From Methyloceanibacter sp. wino2 (GTDB taxonomy: Bacteria; Pseudomonadota; Alphaproteobacteria; Rhizobiales; Methyloligellaceae): 64,000 nucleotides of DNA. The translations under genes were made by a program, and so were the position numbers. Shown piece after piece: positions 31,789 through 47,893 of the stretch (within the stretch, counting starts at the first letter, position 1; each line of letters starts with the position of its first letter). The notes under the pieces were generated by a model. That model saw nothing but the letters and a program-made list of their open reading frames with translations. It was not told the DNA's origin and did not search any database. Location: assembly GCF_003071365.1 (NCBI RefSeq), contig NZ_CP028960.1, positions 868,001 through 932,000 on the forward strand, read 5' to 3'.

Positions 31789-31828
31789 ACTCGGGAGACG
31801 CGTGAGTTAGGACTTAGCTTTGCCGCCC

Positions 31829-32332
31829 TCAACTGCACGCGTAATAGCCCCAGTAGCCGATCTCCCCAGCGCCTTGTATCCGAAACCGCAGCTCGGCGTT
31901 GCGCAGTTCCTCGCCCTCTCCATCTGGCGTCACCGCGGCCGCAATTCCTTCGCCGTTTGCTCGAGTAGTGCCGGTGCTGCGTTTGGCTTGCAGCTTAAAA
32001 AGCTTTCCGTGGAGCTTCATAACGGCCGGTGATTGGCTGGTGTCCGCACCACTAGTCTCTACCACTAGAACGGGATCACCCACTCGGGTATAGCTAAAGC
32101 GGCAGGTTGGTCCGCTTACCACTTTAGCGTACTCCTCTTCAGGCATTGTCTGCGGATATGTCGAGGAAACATCGGCGAGCCGCACGGCCTCTTCCGCCGA
32201 CACGACATCGGCAACTGGCTTATCTTTGGCCCTATCGGCACCTCGGTCATTCCCGGGGTGCTCATTTTCCGCGCACCCAGAGAGCGCTAGGACGACCACA
32301 GTCATTCCCGTGAGAAACGCTCGTGTGATCAT
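31829..32332 (-). CDS. Exported lipoprotein of unknown function
   Basis: 167 residues. The signal MITRAFLTGMTVVVLALSGC ends in a lipobox (LSGC). The mature domain has FSYTRVGDPVLVVETSGA and a C-terminal Cys (YYACS). It lies 3 bases after the DUF305 gene on the same strand, so they are cotranscribed. No family name could be assigned with confidence. Confidence 0.65.
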   Translation of the reverse strand: MITRAFLTGMTVVVLALSGCAENEHPGNDRGADRAKDKPVADVVSAEEAVRLADVSSTYPQTMPEEEYAKVVSGPTCRFSYTRVGDPVLVVETSGADTSQSPAVMKLHGKLFKLQAKRSTGTTRANGEGIAAAVTPDGEGEELRNAELRFRIQGAGEIGYWGYYACS

Positions 32333-32335
32333 GGC

Positions 32336-32788
32336 TTAGTCATCCTTTTTCTCAAGTTCACGAATGAGATAGCGCATTTCGGCGATCTCCCGCCTTTGCG
32401 CCTCGATGATTTCGTCAGCCAGCTTGCGAGCTCGAGGATCTCTAAGATCCGCGCGTTCGCTGGTCATGATCGCAATTGAATGATGTGGGATCATGGCCCT
32501 CATATAAGACACCTCATCAACGGTAACCTGGCTTCGGACTAGGTAGAGAGAAAGTACAAAAGCAATTGCGGCCCCGACGAAGATCGCTGCATTGAGGCTC
32601 TTGTTCTCGTACATGCTCAGCATGAAGCCGAGCATGATTACCGCCATCGTCGCTCCCATAAGAAGCGCCATATAGGTGCGCGTTTCGCTAAAAAATATGT
32701 GCTCAAAGGCAAAGGTGTTTAAATACATCAGGACAAACATGATAATCGTCGATGTGGCGATCATCGCGCCGAAACGTAGGTAGCTCAT
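32336..32788 (-). CDS. Membrane protein with DUF305 domain
   Basis: 150 residues: four hydrophobic segments (ATSTIIMFVLMYLNTFAF; YMALLMGATMAVIMLGFML; AAIFVGAAIAFVLSLYLV) and then the DUF305 signature MRAMIPHHSIAIMTSERADL near residue 105. DUF305 proteins are common in copper-resistance islands. The preferred start is ATG 32788, with GGAG upstream. The 5' leader is unusual: 18 bases ahead of the start codon is a run of 24 identical bases (32807-32830). Confidence 0.85.
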   Translation of the reverse strand: MSYLRFGAMIATSTIIMFVLMYLNTFAFEHIFFSETRTYMALLMGATMAVIMLGFMLSMYENKSLNAAIFVGAAIAFVLSLYLVRSQVTVDEVSYMRAMIPHHSIAIMTSERADLRDPRARKLADEIIEAQRREIAEMRYLIRELEKKDD

Positions 32789-32806
32789 GTCCAAATTTCT
32801 CCGGAT

Positions 32807-32830
32807 GGGGGGGGGGGGGGGGGGGGGGGG
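32807..32830. repeat. 24-base G homopolymer
   Basis: An unbroken run of 24 G on the plus strand (C on the coding strand of the DUF305 gene), 18 bases upstream of that gene's start. It would change length readily by slippage, and also invites sequencing error. Confidence 0.95.
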
Positions 32831-32927
32831 TGCTCACGTAGTTGACGGGTCCATAACGCACGAGATGCCACAAAGTTGCGCCATCTCCACTTGGATTGCT
32901 CTACATTTCAGTTGCGGGTGCCACGCC

Positions 32928-33623
32928 TCAAATTTTACGCAGTCCCCGCGCCACTTCGGGAAGCGTACTCAGAAAATTGTGCACTTTACCGCTTCCTACA
33001 AGCGCCTCGGCCGCATCACCGACAGCGACCCTATCCTCATCGTCCTCCACAATTCCCCAAAGAAACACCTCCGCACTGAGTACAACTACATTCACCGATT
33101 GCATTGACACGCCCCCCCGCCGCTTCACCAACTCCACGATTCCCATACGAATGTTCAGATCTTCGATCGTCGGCTCTTCCTCCCGACCACGGAGGGCCGC
33201 CAGACCTTGCAGTACATCTGCCCGGCTAACGACGCCCGCAATTTGCCCCCCTTCGAGAACGGGTACGCGTTTTACGTGGTTAGACTCGAGGAGACGGGCG
33301 ATCTCTGACAGAGACGCGTCTTTGGTCGTACAGATTACGTCTTGGGTCATGATGTCCTTTGCGCGGACCCCCTCTCTGTGCACGAATTTCGCCCCTCGAT
33401 CTGCAACGAGAGAAAGCCACCAACCACGCCCAGGATCCCGTTTTGCGCTCCGCATAAGATCACTTTCACTTACGATACCCAAAACGTGATCATGCTCATC
33501 CGCAACGATCACCGCGCTGATTCGGTGTCTAATCAGGATCTTTGCAATGGACGCCAAATCCGTTTCCGGATCTACTGTGACAACGTCTGGCGTCATGATG
33601 TCTCTCGCATGCATGTGATTCAT
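32928..33623 (-). CDS. CBS-domain pair plus BON-like domain protein
   Basis: 231 residues: two CBS domains (MHARDIMTPDVVTVDPETD with IVADEHDHVLGIVSESDL; VRAKDIMTQDVICTTKDAS with VPVLEGGQIAGVVSRADV), then a C-terminal BON-like domain. CBS pairs bind adenine nucleotides and often regulate transporters or channels. It is on the same strand directly behind the ion-channel gene and the CDF exporter, so it may regulate them (inference). Confidence 0.85.
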   Translation of the reverse strand: MNHMHARDIMTPDVVTVDPETDLASIAKILIRHRISAVIVADEHDHVLGIVSESDLMRSAKRDPGRGWWLSLVADRGAKFVHREGVRAKDIMTQDVICTTKDASLSEIARLLESNHVKRVPVLEGGQIAGVVSRADVLQGLAALRGREEEPTIEDLNIRMGIVELVKRRGGVSMQSVNVVVLSAEVFLWGIVEDDEDRVAVGDAAEALVGSGKVHNFLSTLPEVARGLRKI

Positions 33624-34164
33624 CCTTTTGTTGCTTACAGATCCCCTTGACCACTGGACTCAGCGCAAGGCTGCCATGGCCATAGGCGTCCCATGGCGAG
33701 GTAGCGGACCAGGTGATCAGCAACAGCCCGTTCAGGGCTTCGACACCAGTGATGAAGCGGAGATGGTCGTTGGGAAATGCATCGCCGATACCGAGGGACG
33801 TGTAACTCACGATAGAGAAATAGAAATAGTCGAGCGGCTCGGCGATCCTTACGCCGCCCAAGCTACCTACGGTCAGCACCCTATCACCGAGTGCATAAGC
33901 ACCTGCATACAAACTTATCTCGCCAAGATGCGCCGCGAGCGCCACCAAGACGATGACCATGATGCGAACCCCTGCCGTCATTGGAATGCGAGCCATACTC
34001 CCAGAGAGCCAACGCAGAACGAAGAAATGCAATAGGAACGTCGCCACCACGAGCGATAATGCCAAAATTGCCGCAATAACATCGCACCCTCCTCCCGACA
34101 ACGTTAGATCCTTTGTTCCACCTTGTGCATGTGCGAAGGCGCCAACGCCAGTTGCTGCCCGCAT
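33529..34164 (-). CDS. Two-helix potassium-channel-type protein (C-terminus probably frameshifted)
   Basis: About 155 residues match a small ion channel: hydrophobic helices followed by a pore loop with selectivity-filter-like YFSIVSYTSLGIGD and the second helix GLLLITWSA. After WSA the current frame runs on as TSPWDAYGHGSLA into the CBS gene. The neighbouring frame reads YLAMGRLW and stops at 33635, just before the CBS start at 33623, which is what the family would lead one to expect. So a small indel near 33695-33705 is likely. It starts 2 bases after the CDF gene. Confidence 0.75.
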   Translation of the reverse strand: MRAATGVGAFAHAQGGTKDLTLSGGGCDVIAAILALSLVVATFLLHFFVLRWLSGSMARIPMTAGVRIMVIVLVALAAHLGEISLYAGAYALGDRVLTVGSLGGVRIAEPLDYFYFSIVSYTSLGIGDAFPNDHLRFITGVEALNGLLLITWSATSPWDAYGHGSLALSPVVKGICKQQKDESHACERHHDARRCHSRSGNGFGVHCKDPD

Positions 34165-34166
34165 GG

Positions 34167-35090
34167 TTATCTTCTTAGAAGGGTTGAGATATCTACCTCC
34201 CTTGCATGGTCCTCATCCAGACACTTCGTCTCGACCTGCAAGGTCGAGAAGTAGAAGCCAAATTGATCACGCAACACGCGATGCGCCTGTTCTAAAAGTG
34301 TGTCTGCTTGGTCGAACTTGTCGGTTCCGATATGCGCTGAGAATACGTTCTTATCGGATGAAAGACTCCATGCATGCATATGATGGATGGTTTGGACATC
34401 CGGGAGCGTGCCGAGGGCGACAGCTACTTCGTTGAGGTCAATAGACCTCGGCGCTCCCTCCATTAGAATCGACAACGCATCGCGCATGATGCCCCATGAT
34501 GCAGCCAGCAACACGAGGCCGAAGGCCATGCCCAGAATGGGATCAATGGCGACGAACCCGGTGACGTAGATCACGGCAGCGGTAATGAGGATCAATATGC
34601 TCCCAATGAAGGTTTGCATAACGTGCCAGAACGCGCCCCTAAGATTGAGGTCGCCCTTTTGACCGCTGTAGAGTAGCCGTATCGATATTATCTCTGTCAG
34701 CAGACCACCGCCGGCAGCTACCAACAGTGGTGTCGTTGGGAGCTCAATTGGATGCCTTAGCCGCATCGCTCCCATGACGAGCACCAGCACAGCCATGCCG
34801 GCGAGGAAGACACCATTCAATAGGGCACCGATTATCTCAGCGCGGAAGCTCCCGAAGGTCCGATCGAGGCTAACTGGCCGGCGCGCTATCCTCATGGCTA
34901 CGAAGGCCAGCACCACACCGCCGACGGCAGAGAACGTGTGAAAAGCGTCGGAGGTGACTGCCACGGAGCCCGTGTACAGCCCTATGCCCAATTCAATCAG
35001 GAAGTATACGCCCGTAAGCCAACCCGAAATTTTGAGCGCTCGCTCGTTTGCGGCAGTCCTTTCGGGCACATGCGCGGAGTGATCAAACAT
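34167..35090 (-). CDS. Cation diffusion facilitator (CDF), CzcD/ZitB-like
   Basis: 307 residues with six membrane helices and a soluble C-terminal domain. It has the conserved transport-site pairs in TSDAFHTFSAVGG and LRGAFWHVMQTF, and the cytoplasmic motif IHHMHAWSLSSDKNVFSAHI. ATG 35090 has GGAG in front, whereas the longer frame adds 36 residues without similarity. It exports Zn or Co. It is first in the minus-strand group CDF, channel, CBS-BON. Confidence 0.9.
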   Translation of the reverse strand: MFDHSAHVPERTAANERALKISGWLTGVYFLIELGIGLYTGSVAVTSDAFHTFSAVGGVVLAFVAMRIARRPVSLDRTFGSFRAEIIGALLNGVFLAGMAVLVLVMGAMRLRHPIELPTTPLLVAAGGGLLTEIISIRLLYSGQKGDLNLRGAFWHVMQTFIGSILILITAAVIYVTGFVAIDPILGMAFGLVLLAASWGIMRDALSILMEGAPRSIDLNEVAVALGTLPDVQTIHHMHAWSLSSDKNVFSAHIGTDKFDQADTLLEQAHRVLRDQFGFYFSTLQVETKCLDEDHAREVDISTLLRR

Positions 35091-35560
35091 GGTTATCTCC
35101 AATATTCCCGATACGTCGGCAACATGTGGGTTTAGGCACGGCGGACTAATGGTCTTCCAGATCCAACTTGCTAAACGTCTAGACGCCGTTCCCTTCACAC
35201 GTGATTACATCGCGATTCGTGAGAGGCAGCTGAGAGAAGTAGATATGCGCCAGACCGGCGCAAGCATCGCTGCAGAGTAGTCGAGAACCTGGGACGCGTG
35301 CTTGAACTCACTGAGAGTCTGCCTCCTTTCGTCACCGCGACGGAGATCTTGCTCTAGACACACGGCGCCAACAAGCGCCCTTCTAGCCGAAACGCGGTCG
35401 ACGCGTATTTGGCGACCGGCCCAAGGGTTCTCGACCGAAAACGGTCGCCGTAAATATATGTCCACTTGGGGTCAAGAGCGGAATTCCCAATATGACCACC
35501 CTGCGCCTGTAACTCTTGATTGATACCGATCAATGAGTCTGGGGTTATGACCACGGCTAG
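35091..35560. other. Intergenic region without a recognisable gene
   Basis: The divergent space between the CDF exporter and the SHOCT gene. Small frames here show no convincing codon pattern or ribosome site. Promoters for both flanking genes must lie here, but no specific sites were identified. Confidence 0.6.
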
Positions 35561-35782
35561 ATGATGGATGGCAGTGACATGGGCTTCGGATTCATATTCT
35601 GGCTTATAGTCCTTGCTGTAATCATTGCGGTCGCGGTGTGGTTCGTCCGCTCTCGACCACTTGCTGATAATCAAGGATCGCTAGATCAGCGTTCTCCGAC
35701 CATTAAGGTGCTGGAAGAACGCTATGCTCGCGGAGAGATCAACCGCGAGGAATGCCTTCAGAAGCGCGACATTATCGATTGA
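35561..35782 (+). CDS. Small SHOCT-domain membrane protein
   Basis: 73 residues: a membrane helix (GFIFWLIVLAVIIAVAVWFV) followed by a SHOCT motif (IKVLEERYARGEINREECLQKR). SHOCT proteins are small and often oligomerise. The start is taken at the first ATG of ATGATGGATGG; the ribosome site is weak. A strong hairpin follows at 35849. Confidence 0.75.
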   Translation: MMDGSDMGFGFIFWLIVLAVIIAVAVWFVRSRPLADNQGSLDQRSPTIKVLEERYARGEINREECLQKRDIID

Positions 35783-35848
35783 AGCACCGGGCGAGCTGCC
35801 GCCGAAGGCTGCCCATGTTCGCTTTGAGTCAGAACATTGATGAAGCAA

Positions 35849-35875
35849 GGGCGCCTTGCTAAAGCAAAGGCGCCC
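35849..35875. terminator. Hairpin between the SHOCT and ATP-grasp genes
   Basis: GGGCGCCTTGC and GCAAAGGCGCCC form a strong stem with one bulge, in the space between the two converging genes. A second weaker stem (TGCCTTC...GAAGGCA) follows near 35884. There is no T-run, so it is assigned tentatively as a bidirectional terminator. Confidence 0.45.
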
Positions 35876-36018
35876 TCCAGTTGATGCCTTCCAGCCTTGG
35901 GGGCATTGAAGGCACTTCTACTCTAGCAGATTTCCGCGGGGCTGAAAGTCGTAACGTGTCGGTGCAACGATGAGTGGGCAGCTAAGCCCGCTAGAAGCCA
36001 AGGCTGACATCTTGGCCG

Positions 36019-37278
36019 CTAAACAATAAACAAAGGTGCGAATCCTCCTCCAGGAGTGGAGAGGTTTGTAGTCTGCCCTTGGTAAACTCGCGCAGCACCG
36101 ATCAGCGTACGCGATTGGTACGTGTAAAGTCTCACATCGATCTTGCGCACTTCAGGTGCTCTATCGACCATGACAAGGCGCTCACTCGGCCGAACTAGAT
36201 GCTGCGCCACGTATTGATCCTTTAGGATCTCTGACCAGACTCGCTTCGTAAGCTTGTCACCGCGATAGACGGCCTTACTGCCGTGGCCGCTGCTAGGCTT
36301 AAAGAACAATGTCTTGCGTCGCTCCCAGAGGTCGGAAGCATTTTCAGACGTCACCAGAACCGTGGGCGGCACAGCCTGCAACCGAGCAAGCCTTTCCCCA
36401 GCGCCTCCCCAGCTCTCCAACCTATCTGAATCCGAAAGCACGGACATATTGCGCTTGTCGGCCAAGAGGGCGTGGTTATGAGGATTTGGAGTGAGCGTAA
36501 CCGCGCCATCTTCATATGCCTGCCTCAGCGCTTGATGCTCAGGCCACTCCAACGCGAAGTCTGTAAGACGATTGTAGACAAGATCAATCTCTTCTCCTTC
36601 AAAGGTGAGCCTCTTGCCTCCGTAGTGAAGACGCCGCGCATCAGCAATGACACTGGGAATCCCCCTCTGCTTTAGCGCTTCGCGCGCCAGAGTAAACTCG
36701 GGGAAAAGAAACTGTTGTTCGGGAACGTCGTCGACAATCGCGATAGTTCTCGGCTTCCCCGTTCTGCCCTGTCGGCCCCATTCCGCCAGGAACATGTTGA
36801 AGGCAAGATCTTCGAAGCTGTAATGCTCCCCCGAATATTCAATAGCGTTTCCACAACACGCCATCTGCGCTCGGCCCAGCGCCGCATTTAAAAACGCGCC
36901 TCCAGCGTTGGTGTTGATCTCGATAAGGCTTGGGCCGTCTTCGCCGAGATGGAAATCGTAGCCCATTAGCGCTCCGGCTGGACCGAAATCTCGGCGAGCG
37001 ATGTCAGGAGCCCACGCTAAAACCGCTTGCCTGTACCGTTCTAGGCCACTCACCTGCTCAATCGCCTCTACCACCTGCTCCATTTTTGCGAACTCGTCGC
37101 CTGAGAGGAAAACAGGGACATCGGAAAAGGCGTGGGGCTGCGCAGTCATGAGCCGCTGGCTGAACCCAGACTCTTCGGCCTCTGCGTCGAGCGCGCGGCC
37201 GAGAGCCTCACGATCCAGAGTAATGCAAGCGCAACCGTGATTCAGCCGAACGGCTTCAGATGTCGGAGTGCTGTTCAT
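36019..37278 (-). CDS. ATP-grasp enzyme of unknown role
   Basis: 419 residues. The C-terminal half shows the ATP-grasp fold: TLFFKPSSGHGSKAVYRGDK (ATP-binding loop), and KIDVRLYTYQSRTLIGAARV near the end. The middle has GYDFHLGEDGPSLIEINTNA, another acid-rich site with the EINTNA metal-binding pattern of ATP-grasp ligases. These enzymes join an acid to an amine using ATP. No partner peptide or biosynthetic gene is close by, so the substrate is unknown. The start ATG (MNSTPTSEAV) is the only plausible one. Confidence 0.75.
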   Translation of the reverse strand: MNSTPTSEAVRLNHGCACITLDREALGRALDAEAEESGFSQRLMTAQPHAFSDVPVFLSGDEFAKMEQVVEAIEQVSGLERYRQAVLAWAPDIARRDFGPAGALMGYDFHLGEDGPSLIEINTNAGGAFLNAALGRAQMACCGNAIEYSGEHYSFEDLAFNMFLAEWGRQGRTGKPRTIAIVDDVPEQQFLFPEFTLAREALKQRGIPSVIADARRLHYGGKRLTFEGEEIDLVYNRLTDFALEWPEHQALRQAYEDGAVTLTPNPHNHALLADKRNMSVLSDSDRLESWGGAGERLARLQAVPPTVLVTSENASDLWERRKTLFFKPSSGHGSKAVYRGDKLTKRVWSEILKDQYVAQHLVRPSERLVMVDRAPEVRKIDVRLYTYQSRTLIGAARVYQGQTTNLSTPGGGFAPLFIV

Positions 37279-37666
37279 TATACCCTTTTTGGATTCCTTG
37301 GGTGACAGCGGGCAAACAGTCTAATGGAAATCATCTCGGATTGCCGGATCGCGGGAAGGCCCAAGTGACCGCTTCGCCTAAGCTTACATGCTTTAGCCTT
37401 GGATCCCTCGTAGCACTGAGTTGTGCATCAGACGCTCGTATGTGGCTGCAGCGGCGATCGTGTTCATCGAGGATTGGAATCCAGGAGAGCCGAACGATCC
37501 CAGAAAGAAAAAGGAGCGCAATCACAGACGGCTGTAACGCTCGACGCTCGACACTCGGAGGGAGCAGCAAGGGCCTTCAGAAGTCGAGCAAGGCCCGAGC
37601 TGCTCTTTACGCTCCAAAGTGCCGCAAAAACAGGACTTAGCCTAGTCTGTTCCACAACCCACTGTC
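37279..37666. other. Intergenic region without a recognisable gene
   Basis: The short frames in this stretch overlap each other on both strands and lack similarity or ribosome sites. The promoter of the ATP-grasp gene should be at the left side. Confidence 0.6.
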
Positions 37667-38434
37667 CTAGAATTCGGCTTCAATGTCGAACTTTAGGGTG
37701 ATATCTGACGTCGCATCGGACACGCCGAAGAGCGTGCCTGCAGCGAACTCCCACTTAGGCATGCCTTCCAGTTCCAAATAAGCGACCGGCCCTACCCTAT
37801 GCTTCTGCTCGTCCCAGGTCCCGGTGTGTGAGAGGTCCTCGATCTCGCTGTAGCCTTCGACGCCCAGTCCCCACGTCTCGTTGAACTCGTGCTTCAGCCG
37901 CCAGTTTAATTTGAGCTCCAGGCTGTCGATTTCGCGGTGATCGCCGACCTGGCCGATGAAGAACGCATTCACCGTGGCCGAATCCTGGCCGTGAACGTAC
38001 TTGGCGAGTGGGCCAAACAGAATCTCGCCGGGATCGCCGTCCTGTAGCGCCCACTCGTATAGAGAACGAAAAGCGAGGCCCCAGCCATCGCCGTGGCGCT
38101 CCATCAGCTCGTACTGTCCGCCGAGCTCGAACCTCTGCCACTTAAGGCTGTCGCCGATGTTCTCGCGGCCGGTTAGCTCAGCGATGCCCTCTAGCCGATC
38201 GGTGAAACCGTATTTCACTTCCAATTCGTGAGACTGGCGGCGGCGTTCGTCCTCACCCGGACCCGAATAGATCGCGCCATGCTCTTCCAGTTTGAGCTCG
38301 CCCTTCTCCACGTCCGGTGAGCGGACATAGAACTGTGCCTGCGCGGCCTGAGCCGCGATCAGAACCCCTGCAAAAACGAAGCAAAAACAGCCGATACGGC
38401 GCAAACAGGCGCCGCGCCCCACATCCCCGCTCAT
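37667..38434 (-). CDS. Exported beta-strand-rich outer-membrane-like protein
   Basis: 255 residues. A signal peptide (residues about 1-32, CFCFVFAGVLIAAQAAQA) precedes a mature part of alternating strands (SHELEVKYGFTDRLEGIAEL; RLKHEFNETWGLGVEGYSE) ending in an aromatic Phe (FDIEAEF), like an outer-membrane barrel. ATG 38434 was chosen because it gives a normal signal peptide and has GAGAGG upstream. The function is unknown. Confidence 0.65.
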   Translation of the reverse strand: MSGDVGRGACLRRIGCFCFVFAGVLIAAQAAQAQFYVRSPDVEKGELKLEEHGAIYSGPGEDERRRQSHELEVKYGFTDRLEGIAELTGRENIGDSLKWQRFELGGQYELMERHGDGWGLAFRSLYEWALQDGDPGEILFGPLAKYVHGQDSATVNAFFIGQVGDHREIDSLELKLNWRLKHEFNETWGLGVEGYSEIEDLSHTGTWDEQKHRVGPVAYLELEGMPKWEFAAGTLFGVSDATSDITLKFDIEAEF

Positions 38435-38627
38435 GGGCCTCTCCCTTATTGCCGGCACTGAAGGGAAATTAGCCAGATGCAACCAGTGAAAGAAATTCAG
38501 ATCAAGTGGAATTCATCAGTGATTCATTCCTGAAGGGGCCAGACTGGCTCCGACCACTTTGGGTCGAAAGCTGCCTTTGGGCTGGCCACCTAGGTGGTCC
38601 GCTTCATCCCATTAGCGGACCTCCTGG

Positions 38628-39353
38628 TCAGCTTTTTCGAGGGGGCATCGGCACGATCATGGAGACACGTCGGCGGTATTGCGCGTAGGCGTCACCGTGA
38701 AAGTTTACGAGGTCGCGTTCCTCGAGCCAGATGCCGATGAAGATGTAGCCTGTCGTCGCTATGGCGAACAGTAAATGGCCGACCGTCATCACCGGTGTGG
38801 CCCAAAAGGCGAGCAGGAACCCGAAATAGATCGGATGGCGTACATAGCGGTAGAGCAACGGCGTGGCGAAGCCGGGCGGCTCGGACTTAGTACCGCGCCA
38901 ATGCGCGTAGACCTGCTGCAGGCCAAATAAATCGAAGTGATTGATTAGGAACGTACTGACCAGCACGATGGCCCAGCCGAGCCAGAAGAGCGCGACGAGT
39001 ATGCTTGCGCCGACTGGGTTGGTCACGTTCCAGACCACCTCTGGCATCGGACGCCATTGCCAATAAATGAGGATCAAGATCAGGCTCGTCGCTAGCACGT
39101 AGGTGCTGCGCTCGATTGCGGGCGGCACGATGCGCGTCCACCAGCGCTTGAAGCCCGCACGCGCCATAACGCTGTGCTGAACAGCGAAGAGGCCGAGCAA
39201 GACGACGTTGATCACCAGGGCCTCGATAACTGGACCCGGCTCGCCGCTGTCGATGGTCTTGGGAACGAAGATGTTGCCGACGAAGCCAATAGCGTAGAGG
39301 AACGTCAGCAGAAAGAGGATGTAACAGAACGCACCGTAGAGAAGTGCAGCCAT
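38628..39353 (-). CDS. mddA: MddA-type methanethiol S-methyltransferase (NnrU/ICMT-like membrane protein)
   Basis: 241 residues with about five membrane helices, and the conserved C-terminal motif [20 protein letters not shown] with [20 protein letters not shown], as in MddA. MddA methylates methanethiol to dimethyl sulfide with S-adenosylmethionine. The ATG at 39353 has a strong GGGAGG ribosome site and gives a first helix; the longer upstream frame does not fit. Other isoprenylcysteine-methyltransferase-like proteins share this fold, so the substrate is inferred. Confidence 0.7.
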
Positions 39354-39489
39354 TGTCGCCTCCCTCGGGCCGGGTAGCCACTGGCCCGCTTCTAATCTCC
39401 TTTCCAAGTACTCGCAAAGCTTAGACTGCACCTTGTGCCGACGAAACTCCCGATCTATATGAATGAATGAAACCCGGATCGTTACTTCA

Positions 39490-40128
39490 ATGGCTAGCTT
39501 CAAGCGCAATCAAGTTCTGGAAGCAATTTCGATGATGCTCGGCGAGGGATCTACTCCCTCTAAGACATTGAAAACGGCCGTGAAGCGGCTGCTGGATACC
39601 GATCGGCAACTCAAGCGCAAAGCGCGATCCAGCGATCCGGAGCAAGCGAATTATGCATTCTTTTCAAGCGATGCCCCCGGAAGTGGTGTTGAGATTCTGT
39701 TTTCGGCTTATGAGGCTTTCGCCATGCGTCTGGGCGTCGAGCTCTTACATCGATGGACGCAGCGTACAGTCGTCAAGATCCTTCGTCAGGTACGCCCTCA
39801 TCTCGAGCCGAAGCACTTCGAAATTTTGAGCTGGAATCCGCAGGAGTTGTTTGACTGGGAAGAGATTTTGGCGAAGGCCAAACCAGGCGATCTCGCCGTC
39901 TCATCGACTCGTCCAGTTTACTTTCAGGTCGTTTCGAGTATGGGGCGCCCTCTAGGAGCCAAAACAAATGACGTTCCAGAGGTTGCGGTCGTGGATGCAA
40001 AGACGCCGCAGTTTCCCCGTGAACCCGGTCGATCAATAACTGTTATGGAACTGACGAGGCTGGCCCACGACTTCCAAACTGCGTTGGCGAAAACGATGCC
40101 GAGCAAGCGCGGGAGGGGCAACGCGTGA
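39490..40128 (+). CDS. Unknown protein at the edge of the phage-like module
   Basis: 212 residues, soluble, with no recognised domain. It has a basic helical start ([32 protein letters not shown]), which could contact nucleic acid. It reads in the same direction as, and is 93 bases before, the methyltransferase gene. ATG 39490 is chosen by position; the frame opens at 39463. Confidence 0.5.
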
Positions 40129-40221
40129 TCTCTACTTCTAAATCGCAACGCGATAGGCCGTGCAGTTGCTGGCCTGCTTTGGCGCTCCCGCCTCTCCTCC
40201 ACCGCTTGCATTGAGGTGATC

Positions 40222-41634
40222 ATGTCAAAACGCTTGATACAGTCTCGCACAATTGAAACCCAGAATGCGGTTTCTGATAGCGCACTTGCGGTGAAGCTGC
40301 CGTGGGTGGTGGAGATGCTGCCGCCGGCTTCCCTCAAGGCAGCCAAGCGCAACGCGCGCGCTCATAACAAGGCGCAAGAAGAAGCCGTCGCGAATTCGGT
40401 GCTGCATTTCGGTGTGATCAAGCCCGTCGTGGTCGACGAGCAGAGCCGGATCGTGGCGGGCCATGTGGTGTGGCGCGCAGCAAAGAAGCTTGGTCTGAAG
40501 CGGATCCCAGTAATCCGGGTCTCGCACCTTTCGGAGACAGAACTTCGGGCTTACGCGCTCGCCGACAATCAGCTGGCGACCAAGAGCGCTTGGGATATCG
40601 AGATCCTCTCGCTTGAGCTCGGGGAGCTCGAGTTGGCGCTGCCGGCATTTGGCCTTGATTTGTCGATCACCGGTTTCGAACCGGCCGAGATCGATGCCGT
40701 GTTTGACACTCTCGCCGAGAATCCGATCGATCCGGCCGATGAAGCGCTTGAGCCTCTAGAGGGACCGGCCGTGTCTTGGCCTGGAGCCCTCTTCATACTC
40801 GGCCGACATCGGCTTCTGATCGGCGACGCGCGGGATGACGCCGCCTTCGCGCAGCTCATGACGGGCGAGGTCGCGGAGATGGGCATCCACGATCCCCCTT
40901 ACAACGTCCAGATCCAGGGCAATGTCGGTGGCCGCGGCCGTATCAAGCGCCGTGAATTTGCCTGCGCCTCCGGCGAAATGACCTCGGCCCAGTTCGAGGG
41001 GTTTCTCAAGGACACACTTGGGCTTTGCGCCGATCACTCGATCGATGGCGCGATCCATTACGTCTTTATGGATTGGCGGCATGTCTCCGACCTCACGAAC
41101 GCCGGCGCCGAGGTGTTCGATGAGCTCAAAAATATGTGCGTCTGGGTCAAAAGCACCCCGGGGATGGGCAGCTTTTACCGAAGCGAGCATGAGCTCGTCT
41201 TTGTCTTCAAGCACGGCCAGGCACCGCACATGAACAATTTCGGGCTCGGGAGCGGAGGTCGCAACCGCTCGAATGTGTGGCGCTACGCCGGCGTGAACAC
41301 GTTTCGGGCTGGCCGCATGGACGAGCTGGCGATGCATCCGACCGTGAAGCCGGTCGCCATGATCGCCGATGCGATGCGGGACTGTTCGCGCCGCGGGTCG
41401 ATCGTCCTCGACGCCTTCGCCGGCTCCGGGACGACGATCATCGCCGCCGAGCAGACCGGCCGGCGGGCTTTTTGCCTAGAGATCGACCCTCTCTACGCCG
41501 ACGTCGCGATCCGGCGGTGGCAGAAGCTCACCAAGCGCGACGCGATCCTCGAGGGCACCGGCCAGACTTTCGACGCCCTTGCCGCCGGTGCGAGCGAGGC
41601 TCCTCAGCCTCCAAAAGGAGGACGACGGTCATGA
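40222..41634 (+). CDS. ParB-domain plus beta-class DNA methyltransferase
   Basis: 470 residues. A ParB/Srx-like N-terminal domain (residues about 35-130: NARAHNKAQEEAVANSVLHF, IVAGHVVWRAAKKLGLKRIP) is joined to an N6-adenine or N4-cytosine methyltransferase with motif IV HDPPYNV and, further on, motif I DAFAGSGTT, an order like that of beta-class enzymes. It is common in phage and mobile elements as an orphan modification enzyme. ATG 40222 follows GAGGTG. The stop overlaps the DUF5681 start (ATGA). Confidence 0.92.
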   Translation: MSKRLIQSRTIETQNAVSDSALAVKLPWVVEMLPPASLKAAKRNARAHNKAQEEAVANSVLHFGVIKPVVVDEQSRIVAGHVVWRAAKKLGLKRIPVIRVSHLSETELRAYALADNQLATKSAWDIEILSLELGELELALPAFGLDLSITGFEPAEIDAVFDTLAENPIDPADEALEPLEGPAVSWPGALFILGRHRLLIGDARDDAAFAQLMTGEVAEMGIHDPPYNVQIQGNVGGRGRIKRREFACASGEMTSAQFEGFLKDTLGLCADHSIDGAIHYVFMDWRHVSDLTNAGAEVFDELKNMCVWVKSTPGMGSFYRSEHELVFVFKHGQAPHMNNFGLGSGGRNRSNVWRYAGVNTFRAGRMDELAMHPTVKPVAMIADAMRDCSRRGSIVLDAFAGSGTTIIAAEQTGRRAFCLEIDPLYADVAIRRWQKLTKRDAILEGTGQTFDALAAGASEAPQPPKGGRRS

Positions 41635-42053
41635 CCAAGCCCAAGCACTCCAAGAAGGCGCAAACCAAGGCTGCTGGCGGTGGTTACGAGGTTGGGTACG
41701 GCAAACCGCCCAAGAAGCACCAGTTCAAGCCCGGCCTTAGTGGCAATCCCAAGGGACGACCGAAGGGGGCGAAGAATGAAGCCACCATCCTTCGCGAAAT
41801 CATGCATCAGCGCATGGAGGTTCGCGAAGGTGGTCGAGCGCGCAAGATCTCGAGGCTGGAAGCTCTGTTGCTTCGATGCCTCGAGGCAGCCCTGAAGGGC
41901 GACCTCAAGGCGATGGCATTTCTCCTGAATCGCTATCGCCTGATTGAAGGCGACGAGACCGAGCACGGCGAACCGCTCGGCCACGACGAACAGTCGATCC
42001 TGGAAGAGTTCGCCAAACGCTTTCCCCCCAAAGTCCAACCTGTAAAGGAGTAA
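41631..42053 (+). CDS. DUF5681 protein (terminase-associated)
   Basis: 140 residues: basic start, then the DUF5681 signature KKHQFKPGLSGNPKGRPKGA near residue 28. Such proteins are found beside phage terminase genes and are thought to be packaging accessory proteins, possibly small-terminase-like (inference). The start has AGGAGG upstream and overlaps the methyltransferase stop by 4 bases. Confidence 0.85.
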   Translation: MTKPKHSKKAQTKAAGGGYEVGYGKPPKKHQFKPGLSGNPKGRPKGAKNEATILREIMHQRMEVREGGRARKISRLEALLLRCLEAALKGDLKAMAFLLNRYRLIEGDETEHGEPLGHDEQSILEEFAKRFPPKVQPVKE

Positions 42054-42057
42054 TCCC

Positions 42058-43470
42058 ATGCATGGGATCTGCGAACGCGATTTGTTCGACTTCGCCTTGC
42101 GGAGTGATTTCGAGAGTTTCTTGAAGTACAGCGTGCTCACGCTGAACCCGGGCATGCCATTTCTGCCGAACTGGCATATCCGGGCCATCGCCTATCAGCT
42201 CGAGCGCATCCGCCGCGGCGAGATCAATCGTCTCATCATCAATATGCCGCCACGGCACCTGAAGTCGATCACGGTGTCGGTGGCATTTCCGGCGTTTGTC
42301 CTCGGGCATGACCCGCGTCAGCGTATCTTCTCGATCAGCTATGGCAGCGAGCTGTCCTTGAAGCATGCCCGGGATTTCCGGTCGATCGTCGAGTCGTCTT
42401 GGTATGCCCGCGCGTTTCCGCAGATGCGGCTGAGCCGCAGTCTCGACGACGAGGCCGCGACGACCTTGAAGGGGTTCCGCAAGGCCACGTCTGTCGGCGG
42501 TGTCCTCACCGGGCTCGGCGGCAATATGATCATCCTCGATGACCCACAAAAGCCGGTGGATGCCCTATCTAAGACCCGGCGCGACGGCCTGAACCAGTGG
42601 TTCACCAACACGCTCATGTCGCGCCTCGATAATAAGGAGACGGGCGCCATTATCGTCGTGACGCAGCGTGTTCACATGGACGACCTTTCCGGTCATCTCA
42701 TGGGCGGGTCCGGTCATTGGGAAGTCCTGAGCCTGCCGGCGATCGCCGAGGTCGACGAGCAGGTGCCGATCGGCGACGACGAGTTCCATTATCGGCGTGC
42801 CGGGACGGCACTGCATCCGGAGCACGAGTCGATCCAGATGCTACGTGTCCTCCAGAATGACCTCGGGACCTACGACTTCGGCGCGCAGTATCAGCAGGCA
42901 CCGATCCCGGAAGGCGGCGCCATGCTCAAGCGCGAATGGATCCGCCATTACGATGTGGCGCCTGCACGGAAGCCGAGAACAAAGGTCATTCAGAGTTGGG
43001 ACACTGCCGCTAAGGACGGCGAGCAGAATGACTACTCTGTTTGCACGACGATCTTGGTCGACGGCGAAGACTACTATCTCCTCGACGTCCTTCGCGGACG
43101 CTTCGATTTTCCTCGCCTTCAGCAGGTTGCCCTCGCACATGCGGAACGCTTCAAGCCGACAAAAGTGTTGGTCGAAGATGCGTCTGTTGGAATCGCGCTC
43201 GCGCAGGTCCTCCGTTCGAAGGGGAGGTTTCGCATCGAGGCCGTGAAGGTCGAGCACAACAAGCAGATGAGGTTCTTCATCCAGCTTGCAAAGTTCGAGG
43301 CGGGTCACGTCTTCTTCCCACGAAATGCGCCCTTCATGGCTGATCTACTAGCCGAGCTGCTCGCGTTCCCGAGGGGAAAGCATGACGACCAGGTCGACTC
43401 CCTCAGCCAGGCGCTCGCCTGCAAAGTGAGCGACTACACCTCGGCCTTGATGGCGGCCATGAGCGACTGA
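42058..43470 (+). CDS. terL: Phage terminase large subunit
   Basis: 470 residues. ATPase: Walker-A-like [14 protein letters not shown] at about residue 63, Walker [12 protein letters not shown]. Nuclease: [29 protein letters not shown], and [11 protein letters not shown] near the end, the acidic residues of the RNase H-like headful nuclease. TerL cuts and packages phage DNA. It has its own ribosome site (AAAGGAG). A strong terminator follows its stop. No portal or capsid gene is present in the module. Confidence 0.93.
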
Positions 43471-43498
43471 GTCTGCGCATTCACCCTTCAGAAGGGTC

Positions 43499-43529
43499 GG
43501 GGCGGCGCCTAGGCGCCGCCCCCTTTTTT
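43499..43529 (+). terminator. Rho-independent terminator after terL
   Basis: A perfect 24-base palindrome (GGGGCGGCGCCT / AGGCGCCGCCCC at 43499-43522), one C, then six T. A textbook terminator. Confidence 0.92.
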
Positions 43530-43678
43530 CGACTGGACTTCAGCGGCGAAGCGAGCGTGCATGCTACCAACGCAGCGACGGGCAGAAGCCTCCGTCAGCG
43601 CCTCCCCTGGCCTCCTGGCCGGGCTGTGGGCGGTGGAAAGCGCCGGCATCGGGCCGGCGCGCCACGATGGAGGCAATT

Positions 43679-44305
43679 ATGTCAAAAGCCCAAAACGCAA
43701 CCGCCAAGCTCAGCGACGCGCAGCTCGTGATCCTCAGCGCCGCGGCTCAACGCCCTGACGGATCACTTCTCCCGTTGCCCGAAAGGTTGGCTTCGAAGGG
43801 CGCCGCTCAAAACAGAGTCATGGTCGACATCTTGTGCAAGCGAAAGCTGGCCGAGGAAAGGCAAGCCAACACCGGCGCACCTGAATGGCGCCGTGACAAA
43901 GAGGGCCGTCCTCTTGGACTGTTCATTACCAAGGCCGGGCTGCTCGCCCTCGGTATCGACGAGACGGAGGAGATAAAACCCTCGCAGGCGGCAGCGAGTA
44001 TGCCGCGCAAGCGCAAGACGGACGCAAGATCGCGCAGCAAGGTGCGGACCGCTTCAGCTCCTAAATCCAAGAAGCGCGCCGCGCCGTCGCAAAGCAAGCA
44101 GGAGACTGTGCTCAAGATGCTGCGCCGGACGTCGGGCGCTACCATCGACGACATCGTTGCCGAGACCGACTGGCAGCCGCATTCGGTGCGCGGCTTCTTC
44201 TCCGGCCTCGTCAAGAAGAAGCTCAAGCTGCCGCTTGTCTCCGAAGTCGGCAAGAACGGCGTGCGCCGCTACCGCATCGCCCCAACGAAGTCAGCCAAGG
44301 CCTAG
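43679..44305 (+). CDS. DUF3489 protein
   Basis: 208 residues. The C-terminal DUF3489 helix-turn-helix-like region ([40 protein letters not shown]) is preceded by a basic low-complexity linker ([20 protein letters not shown]). It is commonly encoded before DUF2924 and a serine recombinase in alphaproteobacterial mobile elements. A DNA-binding role is inferred. ATG 43679 is favoured by the nearby GGAGG. Confidence 0.85.
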
Positions 44306-44308
44306 GTC

Positions 44309-44815
44309 ATGTCACGGCCTCAGTCCCCTCACCCGCGCCCACAGCGGCGCGGGCGAGTTTCCGCTCAAGCCGAGGCGGATCTTGTCGCACGGGTGAATGC
44401 CCTGCCCGACTGCCCGCGGGCCGAGCTCGAGGCGGAATGGCGACGGCTGTGGAGCCCCCACGTGCCACACCACGCCAGCCGAGCGTTCCTGGTCCGCGCC
44501 GTGGCCTACGGGCTCCAGGCCGAAGTCTACGGCGGTCTCGACTCCGAGACGCGGCGGCTCCTCAAGAAGGCCGGTCAGACGAACGGCAAGTCATCTAGAC
44601 CGCAACGGCGCAGGTTGAGCAAAGGCTCGAAGCTCTTCCGCGAATGGCACGGAGAGACGCACGAGGTGCTCGTGCTCGACAAGGACTTCGCCTGGCGCGG
44701 CGAGACCTACCCAAGCCTCAGCGCCATCGCCCGCGCCATCACCGGCACAAACTGGAATGGTTGGGCCTTCTTCGGTCTGAAGCGCCGCACCAAGGAGGCG
44801 CCGGCCGATGACTAA
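44309..44815 (+). CDS. DUF2924 protein
   Basis: 168 residues, with the DUF2924 signature LVRAVAYGLQAEVYGGLDSE and the end HEVLVLDKDFAWRGETYPSL, SAIARAITGTNWNGWAFFGL. It is encoded 3 bases after DUF3489 and overlaps the recombinase by 8. The family nearly always precedes such recombinases, so it is probably a recombination accessory factor. Confidence 0.88.
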   Translation: MSRPQSPHPRPQRRGRVSAQAEADLVARVNALPDCPRAELEAEWRRLWSPHVPHHASRAFLVRAVAYGLQAEVYGGLDSETRRLLKKAGQTNGKSSRPQRRRLSKGSKLFREWHGETHEVLVLDKDFAWRGETYPSLSAIARAITGTNWNGWAFFGLKRRTKEAPADD

Positions 44816-46604
44816 AACCAACGCGCGTGCGAAGCGCACCCGCTGCGCCATCTATACCCGCAAGTCATCCGACGAAGGTCTCGATCAGGAGTTCAACTCA
44901 CTCCATGCGCAACGAGAGGCCTGCGAGGCTTTCATCGCCAGTCAACGCCATGAAGGTTGGCACGCCCTCACCGCCCACTATGACGATGGTGGGTATTCCG
45001 GTGGGACCATGGACCGCCCTGCCCTCAAACGCCTTCTCGACGACATCGCCGCCGGCAAGGTCGACATCGTCGTGGTCTACAAGATCGACCGGCTGACGCG
45101 GTCATTGTTTGATTTCGCGAAGATCGTTGAAGCGTTCGACACACATAGCGTCTCATTCGTCTCGGTGACGCAAGCCTTCAACACCACGACCTCCATGGGT
45201 CGGCTCACCCTCAACGTGCTTCTCTCATTCGCCCAGTTCGAGCGCGAGGTGACGAGCGAGCGCATCCGCGACAAGATCGCGGCCTCAAAGAAGAAGGGTA
45301 TGTGGATGGGCGGCGCCGTGCCGCTTGGCTATGACGCCGTCGACCGGAAGCTCAAGATCAATGCCGAGGAGGCCAAGACGGTCAGGCGGCTGTTTGCGCT
45401 CTATCTCGAACTCGGCAGCGTCCGAAACCTTCTAGAGGAAACCCGGCGCCTCGGTCTCAAGACCAAGATACGTGGCTTGACCGATGGACGCCGAACGGGC
45501 GGCAGCGCCTTCAGCCGCGGCCACCTCTATCGCATCCTCTCGAGTCCCATCTATATCGGCCGGATTCCCCACCGCCAGACCAGCTACGACGGGGAGCATG
45601 AGGCGATCATCGGTGCCGAGACCTGGGAGAAGGTCCAGGCAAAGCTAAAGGTCAACGCCGGTCGCCAGCGCGGCCGCACCAGCTCCAAGCACCCCAGCCT
45701 GCTCGCCGGTCTCCTCTTCACGGCGGAAGGCGTTCCCTTCACGCCGTCCCATGCGGTCAACCACGGGCGGCGGTACCGGTATTATGTTGAGCGGTCACTG
45801 GTGGCGCCCAAGGCCGAAAAACAGGAAGTCGACCGTCAGGGCAACAGAAGCGAAGCTGGGTTGCGGGCCAAAGGCTGGCGCCTTCCCGCGCATGAGATCG
45901 AGCAGTTGGTACTCAGTCAACTGGCCGCCTTTCTCAGAGACCGCGGCAAGGTGCTCGGTGCCCTGCCCTCCAAGAAGAGATCGCCAGATCAGGTGTCGGC
46001 CGCGCTCGCGCAAGCAGGACGATTGGCTGATGCGTGCGTGGCGAGGTCCGCCGCCAGCCAAGCGGAGGTCGTTGCTGCTCTCGTGCGGCGCGTCACGGTC
46101 GCGCAAGACAAGGTAGCGATTGAGATGGCACGCAAGGCTATTGCCGCGCGGTTACTCAATCAGGAAGTTGTCGCCACATCTGTGGTGAAGGGCCGTGGAT
46201 CGATTAAGATTGAGGCGCCGGTGAGGTTTAGGCGGCGGGGCGTCGAAGCAAAGCTGGTCGTCCTAAACCAGCAGGCCGCTGCCGCCGAGCCCGATCCAAA
46301 CCTCGAAAAGGCGCTCGCGCGAGCGCATGATTGGTTCGGTCAGATCGTTCGAGGAGAAGCAGACGGAATCGGCGCCATTGCGCGTGCGGAGCGGCTCGAT
46401 AGGGCCTATGTGACCCGAGTGATCTGTTTGGCTTTTCTCTCGCCGGAGATCACAAAGACGATATTGGAAGGACGACAGCCGACAGAAATGACGGCGAAGC
46501 GTCTAGCCCGGACTGGGCTCCGGATCCCGCTTCTATGGAGTAATCAGGTTACCGCTGACAATGGAGCGAGACCGCAAATCGGTTCGCCGGACAATTCGGA
46601 CTGA
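44808..46604 (+). CDS. Large serine recombinase
   Basis: 598 residues. Resolvase domain with intact active site: AIYTRKSSDEGLDQEFNSL (catalytic Ser and first Arg) and YKIDRLTRSLFDF (DRLTR). The recombinase domain and a zinc-ribbon-like region follow (LAGLLFTAEG), then a long coiled-coil tail. It is the likely integrase of the phage-like module. Its catalytic motifs make a clear contrast with the defective homologue at 52267. The attachment site was not found. Confidence 0.93.
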   Translation: MTKTNARAKRTRCAIYTRKSSDEGLDQEFNSLHAQREACEAFIASQRHEGWHALTAHYDDGGYSGGTMDRPALKRLLDDIAAGKVDIVVVYKIDRLTRSLFDFAKIVEAFDTHSVSFVSVTQAFNTTTSMGRLTLNVLLSFAQFEREVTSERIRDKIAASKKKGMWMGGAVPLGYDAVDRKLKINAEEAKTVRRLFALYLELGSVRNLLEETRRLGLKTKIRGLTDGRRTGGSAFSRGHLYRILSSPIYIGRIPHRQTSYDGEHEAIIGAETWEKVQAKLKVNAGRQRGRTSSKHPSLLAGLLFTAEGVPFTPSHAVNHGRRYRYYVERSLVAPKAEKQEVDRQGNRSEAGLRAKGWRLPAHEIEQLVLSQLAAFLRDRGKVLGALPSKKRSPDQVSAALAQAGRLADACVARSAASQAEVVAALVRRVTVAQDKVAIEMARKAIAARLLNQEVVATSVVKGRGSIKIEAPVRFRRRGVEAKLVVLNQQAAAAEPDPNLEKALARAHDWFGQIVRGEADGIGAIARAERLDRAYVTRVICLAFLSPEITKTILEGRQPTEMTAKRLARTGLRIPLLWSNQVTADNGARPQIGSPDNSD

Positions 46605-46669
46605 CCTTGACTAGAACTCCGCCTGAATTTACGCTGATCCGCGTAATCGCTTTGTACCAGGGAGGGTCT

Positions 46670-47008
46670 ATGAGCGAGCGTGAAACAACTTTTGGGCGCG
46701 CTATCAGCACCGCACGCAAGGAAAAGGAATTGGGCCTGAAGGACGTAGCATCGCGTATCAAGCGTGAAAACGGAGAATCAATATCCGTGCAGTACCTGAA
46801 TGATATTGAACATGACCGGCGAAGCCCGTCATCGGATCGCATGGTGAAGCAGTTTGCCGTTGCCCTCGGACTGGAGGTGGACTGGCTTTACTATCTGGCC
46901 GGCCGGTTCCCGGAGGACGTGCGTCGAAAGAAAATGACCGCAAACGAAGTCGCTGCGGCGATGACAGCCTTTCGCAAGACAGGGCCCGCGCGTGGAGGCC
47001 GTCGCTAG
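46670..47008 (+). CDS. XRE-family repressor
   Basis: 112 residues with a Cro/cI helix-turn-helix (FGRAISTARKEKELGLKDVA; ISVQYLNDIEHDRRSPSSDR). ATG 46670 follows GGGAGGG. The stop overlaps the GTG start of the ImmA/IrrE gene by one base (TAGTG). The pair resembles ICEBs1 ImmR-ImmA, where the protease cleaves the repressor when DNA is damaged. Confidence 0.85.
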   Translation: MSERETTFGRAISTARKEKELGLKDVASRIKRENGESISVQYLNDIEHDRRSPSSDRMVKQFAVALGLEVDWLYYLAGRFPEDVRRKKMTANEVAAAMTAFRKTGPARGGRR

Positions 47009-47703
47009 TGGTCAGGTACGTGCGGGATAGTACAGGGCGTTTTTTGGAGCGGCCGCACTATGAGCCGAAAGAGCTGGACCGTGAGTGCGAGAACGTGGTC
47101 AGCAAGTTTCTGGCCGGCAAGTACGGCAAAGCCGAGTTCCCACTTTCGACCAACGACCTCACGCAGGTGATCGAGCGTGAGGCGGAAGATCTTGACCTCT
47201 TTGCGGACCTGTCGAAGTACGGCACCGACGTGGAGGGCGTCACGGAATTTCATCCCGGAGCCAAGCCCAGCGTAAAGATATCGAAAGTGCTCGCTGCGGA
47301 CGAGCGCTACCAGAACCGGCTGCGTACGACGCTTGCCCACGAATATGGGCACGTCCACTTCCATGCCTATCTGTGGGACACGCAGCCGCCGGGCGCCGAT
47401 CTGCTCCGGCGCAATCCGGATGCGAACCGGCAGATATGCAAGCGCGACAAAATTCTCGGCGCAGCGCAGTATGACTGGATGGAATGGCAGGCCGGATATG
47501 TCTGCGGTGCCATCCTGATGCCGGCAAGCCGGGTGCGCCGGCTTGCCGGTGACTACCTCGAATCACACCACCTGTACGGCCCGAAGCTCGACACACATCA
47601 TGATGCTAGGCTGATGGTGCTCACCATCCTCGCTCCGCAAAGTGTGACCCCCAAAATCGGCCCACTGAGAAAAACCGCCAGAAGGTCCCCACCTTCCGCG
47701 TAG
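47008..47703 (+). CDS. ImmA/IrrE metallopeptidase with a replaced C-terminus
   Basis: 231 residues. The catalytic HEYGHVHFH is at about residue 111, in the Zn-protease pattern. The family-like part runs to about GDYLESHHLYGP (base 47580); from there the frame reads LDTHHDARLMVLTILA, which is the repeat copy C. So the original C-terminus was cut off and replaced by repeat DNA. It may still be active because the metal site lies upstream. Confidence 0.85.
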   Translation: MVRYVRDSTGRFLERPHYEPKELDRECENVVSKFLAGKYGKAEFPLSTNDLTQVIEREAEDLDLFADLSKYGTDVEGVTEFHPGAKPSVKISKVLAADERYQNRLRTTLAHEYGHVHFHAYLWDTQPPGADLLRRNPDANRQICKRDKILGAAQYDWMEWQAGYVCGAILMPASRVRRLAGDYLESHHLYGPKLDTHHDARLMVLTILAPQSVTPKIGPLRKTARRSPPSA

Positions 47704-47825
47704 GTGCGCGTCTCTCTGCTCTCACTAGGCAGAACCATCGCGGACTAGTGGCGCATTTCCGCACTTCTTCGGGGCTGTTTAGCGGTGGTCAACAGAGAGC
47801 CGGAAACCACGCGACTAGGTGGCTG
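47583..47825. repeat. Copy C of the tRNA-flank repeat, beside tRNA-Gln
   Basis: Same orientation and borders as copy B (7771-8012). It ends in TGGCTG, the last 6 bases of the tRNA gene read from the 3' side, so the tRNA CCA end is part of the repeat. It contains a GATGGTG-CT-CACCATC hairpin. Confidence 0.85.
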
Positions 47826-47893
47826 GGGCGCCAGGATTCGAACCTGGGATCACGAGACCAAAACCCGTTGCCTTACCGCTTGGCCACGCCCCA
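47820..47893 (-). tRNA. tRNA-Gln (anticodon TTG)
   Basis: 74 bases, minus strand. Acceptor TGGGGCG pairs with CGCCCCA, discriminator G, encoded CCA. The T-loop is TTCGAAT in a CCAGG/CCTGG stem, and the anticodon loop is TTTTGGT, giving TTG. It adjoins repeat copy C exactly at its 3' end, which suggests an integration site. Confidence 0.95.

Follow-up and report, generated by a model that had tools for sequence, protein, structure and literature searches.

The window analysed here, 64,000 nucleotides of the chromosome of Methyloceanibacter sp. wino2 (contig NZ_CP028960.1, positions 868,001 to 932,000, forward strand), contains a gene cluster in which a triad of genes, for a ParB_N-domain DNA methyltransferase (MTase), a DUF5681 protein and a terminase large subunit (terL), is followed by a recombinase module of DUF3489, DUF2924 and large serine recombinase genes. 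Repeated attachment (att) sequences mark the cluster as the mobility (recombinase) end of a genomic island, 39.8 kb long, that sits at the 3' end of a tRNA-Gln gene. The best explanation of the findings as a whole, towards which the balance tips slightly in our judgement, is a family of capsid-less, terminase-bearing cargo islands that load themselves into the procapsid of a helper phage.

Island ends and the tRNA-Gln site

The 117 bases up to window position 47825 recur in diverged form at other places in this chromosome and in relatives, and the junctions that we read terminate in GGTGGCTG, a core common to the 3' end of the tRNA. In the chromosome of wino2 (genome G000) the junctions fall at 789652, 809510, 876012 and 915825, with a further variant copy at 875756; 876012 and 915825 correspond to window positions 8012 and 47825. 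Because att repeats stand at both of these positions, the cluster must be part of a 39,813-bp island (Table 1), and the 8.2-kb cluster was rejected as an entire element since the repeats place the left end at window position 8013. A first-pass annotation of this DNA had proposed a satellite-like element; its discreteness, its recombinase and terminase genes and its lack of capsid genes stand, but not its extent, the unit being 39.8 kb of mostly metal-efflux cargo. The tRNA-Gln, whose 3' end points toward the gene cluster, is still predicted whole, with the island inserted at that end. It adjoins the recombinase in G000, G003, G004, G013, G014 and G016, and also in G008, where the recombinases are broken; two recombinase classes, with about 76% and 50% identity to that of the window, share the tRNA-Gln and differ in their right flanks.

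The left ends have GACT[AG]GGTGGCTG-TGCTGG in common, followed in most by TTCCCTGN6GGGAAAN3CAGGGAA, and those of the neighbouring 66-kb island and of G004 are diverged in this end-motif region. The second part of the motif, GGGAAAATACAGGGAAT, has a single occurrence in the window (8064-8080, with up to three mismatches allowed; 0.06 expected). The whole motif was found in 11 of 17 genomes of the genus and 24 of 397 of the order, and a reversed control pattern gave 0 throughout. It is associated with terL, being present in 11 of 33 genomes with terL versus 13 of 364 without (Fisher p 2.8e-7), and with the 11 genus genomes of that sample removed the association persists (6/26 versus 11/360, p 4e-4). 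Twenty further motif loci included three with a complete recombinase within about 310 bp (L309, L313, L319), one with a DUF5681-MTase pair within 0.4 kb (L321), three with recombinase fragments alone (L310, L314, L320) and 13 with no module gene found in the locus read. Since the motif lies at island ends and at some recombinase junctions, a role in recombination is as likely as one as a packaging-start (pac) site.

Two further arrangements were seen among these repeats. A conserved spacer of about 256 bp, beginning GAGAGCATCGGATTCGAAGTTCGACA, lies between two att copies in three genomes and is diverged in G008 (window 7757-8012, which is G000 875757-876012; G005 1144391-1144647; G003 791174-791430; L121 from 5068); it may be the remnant of a tRNA or a minimal element. 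On contig C106 of G024, three end motifs lie within 61 kb (L306-L308) with no module gene in the stretches read, and this triplet is perhaps an island array of another family.

Movement between species and stacking at one site

The genome of a sister species (G005) carries the same island at 1279163-1319215, with the same ends and other neighbours, and therefore the island moves as a unit; the first-pass annotation had allowed that the element might never be found as a discrete unit, a doubt that this copy removes. The two copies of the 40-kb island are 99.92% (31,499 columns) and 99.99% (8,395 columns) identical in two aligned parts, between which about 240 bp are absent from G000, and those of the 66-kb island are 99.65% identical; chromosomal blocks around the array are mostly 85-91% identical between the two genomes, with one at 78.5%. 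To the left of the 40-kb island in G000, successive junctions delimit segments of 66.5 and 19.9 kb; in G005 the 40-kb island adjoins a 68-kb island, and it is the 66-kb island that abuts the tRNA-Gln. As read from these alignments, islands have moved between species recently and have accreted in a different order in each genome, and islands of the same kind are stacked in tandem at tRNA-Gln. The sole module gene seen in the 19.9-kb segment is a broken terL with two TAG codons, near the end of the segment (L042/L052; G000 808332-809183, minus strand), and no recombinase was found in that segment.

A terminase lineage without detected capsid neighbours

We scanned the proteins of at least 100 amino acids encoded within 6 kb downstream of terL (145 proteins from 35 of 37 island loci) against PHROGs. 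No head or portal family was among the 25 most-matched of the 110 families, and single-member exceptions could hide among the other 85; in the control, 59 proteins from 15 phage-like loci, the most-matched families were those of portal and head proteins. A quick tree search on 126 terLs placed 76 of the 77 triad- or recombinase-bearing rows in a single group, along with one other row (L179, which has no triad matches), and the phage-like label requires two changes on the tree. L179 was considered as a capsid-bearing exception and rejected, two of its four scanned neighbours being RecE-like and Erf/HNH proteins and two having no PHROG match. Triad relatives near RecE-like exonuclease, Erf or HNH genes were also noted at L192, L272 and L275 (L179 and L272 scanned, the others by eye).

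The catalytic residues of terL, whose motif names we presume, are nearly invariant among the 77 rows: K69 in 76, D161, D162 and D315 in 77 each, E373 in 75 plus one D, D444 in 73 (four gaps) and D447 in 72 (five gaps). These ATPase and nuclease residues are those found in the phage-like rows. The ratio of nonsynonymous to synonymous substitution rates (dN/dS) of the window terL against its four nearest relatives of the genus in the set compared, the copies in G005, G014, G016 and G008, is 0.13, 0.16, 0.15 and 0.17 respectively, values that are rough because dS is 1.2-2.3; the pair G005-G014 gives 0.15 at dS 0.65, and remoter pairs, at saturated dS and hence little informative, reach 0.46. By these signatures the enzyme character of terL has been conserved, in a lineage without detected portal or capsid neighbours, and the tree gives moderate support to these terLs forming one group separate from phage-like terLs.

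These results bear on the idea of a single prophage that has decayed and lost its structural genes, with the cluster as its remaining end, an alternative that the first-pass annotation had itself named. Although terminase, methyltransferase, serine recombinase and XRE/ImmA genes are all typical of phages, other genera and metagenome contigs show the same order, again without capsid genes, there is one terL group under purifying selection, and the island ends are exact; on recurrence, tree, selection and ends we rule out such decay, which we regard as barely credible. Acetobacter phage phiAO1, with odd genes beside its terL, was likewise dismissed as a packaged island, having a baseplate gene and, in a 6.7-kb stretch, no MTase or DUF5681 match beside terL.

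Distribution and exchange of modules

A search with the window terL gave matches in 17 of 121 genomes, its own included (1e-20), some of them phage-like at 31-36% identity, and a search with an 11-row terL alignment (1e-100) gave matches in 33 of 397 genomes of the order, from 21 of 141 genera. Locus layouts were then read with hidden Markov models (HMMs) in 80 IMG/VR loci (the best of at least 590), 19 loci of a first genome set (L032-L050) and 28 loci of the order set. Among the IMG/VR loci 38 have terL with DUF5681, 35 of these with MTase and 30 with recombinase or DUF2924; the corresponding counts are 15, 15 and 10 in the first genome set and 27, 26 and 9 in the order set. The gene order, whose recurrence in other genomes the first-pass annotation had left to be looked for, is beyond chance because other genomes and contigs again have the triad in company with the recombinase cassette. 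A Sphingobium plasmid also carries the triad, and a recombinase-DUF2924 / MTase-DUF5681-terL module is present in a GenBank entry named 'Bacteriophage sp.' from human faeces (MT839917; L288). A tyrosine integrase as the general partner of triads that have no recombinase was rejected, since a search with the integrase of L044 found no relative at the 20 other loci (one query); the integrase families phrog_1 and phrog_216 were each matched by 2 of the 145 terL neighbours.

At the 15 loci in which terL, MTase and recombinase were long enough, we compared pairwise identities by Mantel correlation with 2000 permutations. The identities of terL and MTase are closely correlated (r 0.95, 0/2000 permutations as high), and those of terL and recombinase less so (0.49, 5/2000). 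Two islands (L040 and L041) that are about 97-98% identical across long blocks have terLs at 1.00 (rounded) and MTases at 0.95 but recombinases at 0.52, from which it follows that the integration cassette was replaced and the triad kept. The strands of terL and recombinase are the same at nine loci and opposite at six. Triad and recombinase module are thus, on the pattern of identities, two units that exchange independently.

Proposed packaging into a helper procapsid and its alternatives

In the mechanism that we propose, the serine recombinase would integrate and excise the island at the GACTAGGTGGCTG core, the MTase would mark or protect island DNA, and DUF5681, acting as a small terminase (TerS), would together with TerL cut that DNA and feed it through the portal of a helper phage's procapsid. 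In the 40-kb island only, the XRE/ImmA pair may release the module after DNA damage; the pair is present in 7 of 325 loci, all copies of this island from G000 and G005, and since it is confined to one island in two genomes the switch lies outside the family core. Phage P1 offers a precedent for a packaging step that depends on methylation, in its case of pac. More tentatively, and with more doubt than confidence, we suggest a distinct kind of mobile element: cargo islands with their own marking enzyme, packaging-start protein and motor, and no shell, which may load large metabolic blocks into the procapsids of any compatible infecting phage, and may have done so in many genera over long evolutionary time. 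Terminase genes are named as a sign of mobilization by phages in a passage of PMC11389934.

The part assigned to DUF5681 follows its position. A fold search gave two BFVD matches below 1e-3, one named DUF5681 and one unnamed, and a TerS only at E 0.5. Two annotated phage TerS proteins encoded next to related terLs were tested, and the family that they matched was GP3_package (one above and one below the cut-off) and not DUF5681.

A number of observations weigh against helper packaging. No particle, helper, pac site or excised circle was seen in the sequence analysis, no clean empty attachment site was present among the tRNA-Gln loci read, and the fold search of DUF5681 gave nothing below 0.001 in PDB and did not bring out a TerS fold. 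To package islands 40 to 68 kb long, a large capacity or packaging in part would be required. SH-aLRT support for the terL group is 82 only, one triad row (L280) falls outside it with unsettled placement, and the high dS and the 85 less-matched PHROG families temper the case for a conserved, capsid-less lineage. Recombinase or DUF2924 lies within 10 kb in just 9 of the 27 order-set loci with terL and DUF5681. Conversely, a recombinase match without a terL match was obtained in G003 and G009 (at least 99% complete) and in the less complete G007 and G015, and MTase with DUF5681 but no visible terL in the G003 island and at L309 of G024.

This last group of observations would fit islands that are real and in which the triad is a passenger, the spread being due to a conjugative helper, transformation, vesicles or generalised transduction. 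Such a reading gains from the loci or genomes with recombinase and without terL (those just named) and from the order-set triads, of which 18 out of 27 show no recombinase as far as the sequence was read; 11 of these 18 extend at least 6 kb downstream of terL, the rest being cut short, some by contig ends. We nevertheless consider it unlikely, since catalytic residues intact in nearly all 77 rows, a dN/dS of 0.13-0.17 in the closest pairs and a triad kept through the recombinase swap speak for a selected function of the triad.

A selected function need not be packaging, and the triad could be a selfish or defensive module whose MTase marks island DNA and whose TerL nuclease cuts unmarked DNA or resolves island DNA. 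The lockstep of terL and MTase, the matches of the MTase to type II methyltransferase models and the many triads without a recombinase in reach would all suit this; neither DUF5681 nor terL had a PADLOC match at 1e-3, however, and TerL retains the ATPase and nuclease residues of the phage-like rows, so that we give a defensive role rather little credence.

Nor need the particle be that of a phage. The wino2 genome has one terL-portal-protease-capsid cluster, at 2725-2738 kb, in an order like that of a gene transfer agent (GTA; this label and that of the protease are our presumption), and island DNA might be loaded into such chromosomally encoded particles. As laid out at L284/L285, this cluster runs from terL and portal through a protease-like gene and some 4 kb of other genes to capsid and connector-like genes, and looks broken (by eye; portal and capsid by family search). 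The 4 kb of other genes before the capsid gene, the absence of tail genes recognised by eye after it (HMMs being limited to the searches named) and the failure of the cluster's terminase model, PF03237, to match the island terL make GTA packaging decidedly improbable. The HK97-capsid and portal families, the two searched, match once each in this genome, together at 2727-2734 kb; as these sole matches lie in the broken-looking GTA-like cluster, the helper of the packaging mechanism that we favour would probably come from outside the island's own genome.

Gene content of the island

All eight genes named in the first-pass annotation, from MTase to ImmA/IrrE, are present at 40216-47703 in one direction and with tight spacing (Pfam, PHROGs), the DUF5681 start overlapping the MTase stop, and its report of a cluster free of portal, capsid and tail genes agrees with our Pfam scan, which found no such family there. 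It had overlooked an additional first gene, orfA, which has no match in Pfam, PHROGs, PADLOC or NCBIfam; relatives (38-66%) lie beside the triad at L036, L032, L034, L035, L038, L176 and L203. DUF2924 matches the RAMA DNA-binding domain in part, according to a passage of PMC11342252. The best NCBIfam match of the serine recombinase is CcrB (5.9e-37, far under the cut-off).

Across the island the Pfam scan covered 37 of the 43 called open reading frames (ORFs), six called ORFs being outside it, plus DUF5681, which the ORF caller had overlooked. Within this set there was no portal, capsid or tail family, no relaxase or type IV secretion family and no Phage_integrase. A cobalamin riboswitch lies in the cargo at window 21159-21360 (minus strand), beside pieces of an OprB porin (19658-21152, minus strand) that is split across two overlapping ORFs and likely frameshifted. 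Selected genes of the 66-kb island encode respiratory nitrate reductase alpha and beta, MFS, COX1 and PQQ proteins, and those of the 68-kb island MFS, RND and solute-binding proteins. The 66-kb island, which has a divergent terL, was rejected as a full prophage, its terL adjoining the nitrate reductase genes.

Table 1. Features of the island and its tRNA-Gln site, in window coordinates.
Feature	Position	Strand	Remarks
Whole island	8013..47825	+	39,813 bp, from behind left att core to tRNA-Gln junction
Left att core GACTAGGTGGCTG	8000..8012	+	Also right end of neighbouring 66-kb island
Island-end motif TTCCCTGN6GGGAAAN3CAGGGAA	8051..8079	+	
Cargo region	8319..37278	.	Pfam
Cation efflux proteins	8319-9017, 34167-35198		Cargo; Pfam
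Two RND pumps	10138-13272, 28528-31788		Cargo, with CusB/HlyD adaptors; Pfam
Other cargo: outer-membrane efflux protein (OEP), TonB receptor, OprB pieces, MerR, DUF411			Pfam
orfA, first gene of cluster	39463..40128	+	Family not recognised
ParB_N + N6_N4_Mtase DNA methyltransferase (MTase)	40216..41634	+	Pfam; phrog_498
DUF5681	41631..42053	+	Pfam; terminase-small-subunit-like by position only
terL	42058..43470	+	Terminase_6C 6.3e-13; phrog_38 8.5e-101; ATPase and nuclease residues intact
DUF3489 protein	43667..44305	+	Pfam
DUF2924 protein	44309..44815	+	Pfam
Large serine recombinase	44808..46604	+	Resolvase + Recombinase domains
XRE-type regulator	46607..47008	+	HTH_3 just above cut-off; weak capH match
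ImmA/IrrE-like metallopeptidase with HEYGH	47008..47703	+	Peptidase_M78 22.3 bits (cut-off 22); weak capP match
Right (recombinase-side) att region	47709..47825	+	Repeated at other array junctions
tRNA-Gln(TTG)	47820..47893	-	Last six bases (TGGCTG on +) within shared core

Comparison with known mobile elements

Many genomic islands spread without visible machinery, and their transfer mechanisms 'have remained enigmatic for decades', in the words of a passage of PMC11389934. In the family described here the packaging motor is conserved, the ends are exact, the tRNA site is fixed, two species have near-identical copies and the cargo consists of respiratory or metal-efflux genes, which makes the question of transfer directly testable. 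Some caution is also due with short 'viral' contigs that carry terL, which may be islands, for example the 38 IMG/VR loci with terL and DUF5681 and MT839917. No description of the MTase-DUF5681-terL triad in islands was found in the titles and passages of the literature consulted.

Phage satellites combine a packaging gene with a lack of capsid genes, and so, in its gene content, does this island. Like phage-inducible chromosomal islands (PICIs) and their capsid-forming kin (cfPICIs), it is an integrated element that has terminase genes and a phage-type regulator but lacks a full set of virion genes. PICIs have TerS and are not known to have TerL, and cfPICIs encode capsid proteins as well; the island, in contrast, has a serine recombinase, tens of kilobases of metabolic cargo, and TerL with DUF5681 but no detected capsid gene, and the capsid and portal genes of its own that mark a cfPICI were not found in it by the Pfam scan.

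Like the staphylococcal cassette chromosome (SCC), the island has a large serine recombinase, is inserted at a conserved gene, on its 3' end, forms tandem arrays, carries adaptive cargo and, as far as is known, has no conjugation genes of its own; in SCC the conserved gene is rlmH. The island differs in its site, tRNA-Gln, in the DUF2924 and DUF3489 genes beside its recombinase, and in the triad, which to our knowledge SCC does not have. Its recombinase matches the Ccr models under their cut-offs (CcrB 127.5 bits against 900, CcrA 85.5 against 700, CcrC 76.5 against 900).

Tycheposons are likewise cargo islands bordered by a tRNA gene, as described in a passage of PMC10872708, and are listed among the proposed phage satellites in one of PMC11389934. 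They differ in using a tyrosine recombinase, xerD (PMC10872708, same passage), where the island has a serine recombinase with MTase-DUF5681-terL. Phage WO of Wolbachia has a large serine recombinase with a DUF2924 gene downstream, as the island does (PMC11376236, in part), yet what defines a WO genome is its connector/baseplate, tail fiber, tail and lytic modules (PMC9203015, in part).

By the features tested, the island is a member of the tRNA-site genomic islands and appears not to be a complete prophage, a cfPICI, an SCC, a tycheposon, an integrative and conjugative element or a mobilizable element. By analogy, its way of working may join that of a phage satellite to that of a cargo island of the SCC or tycheposon type.

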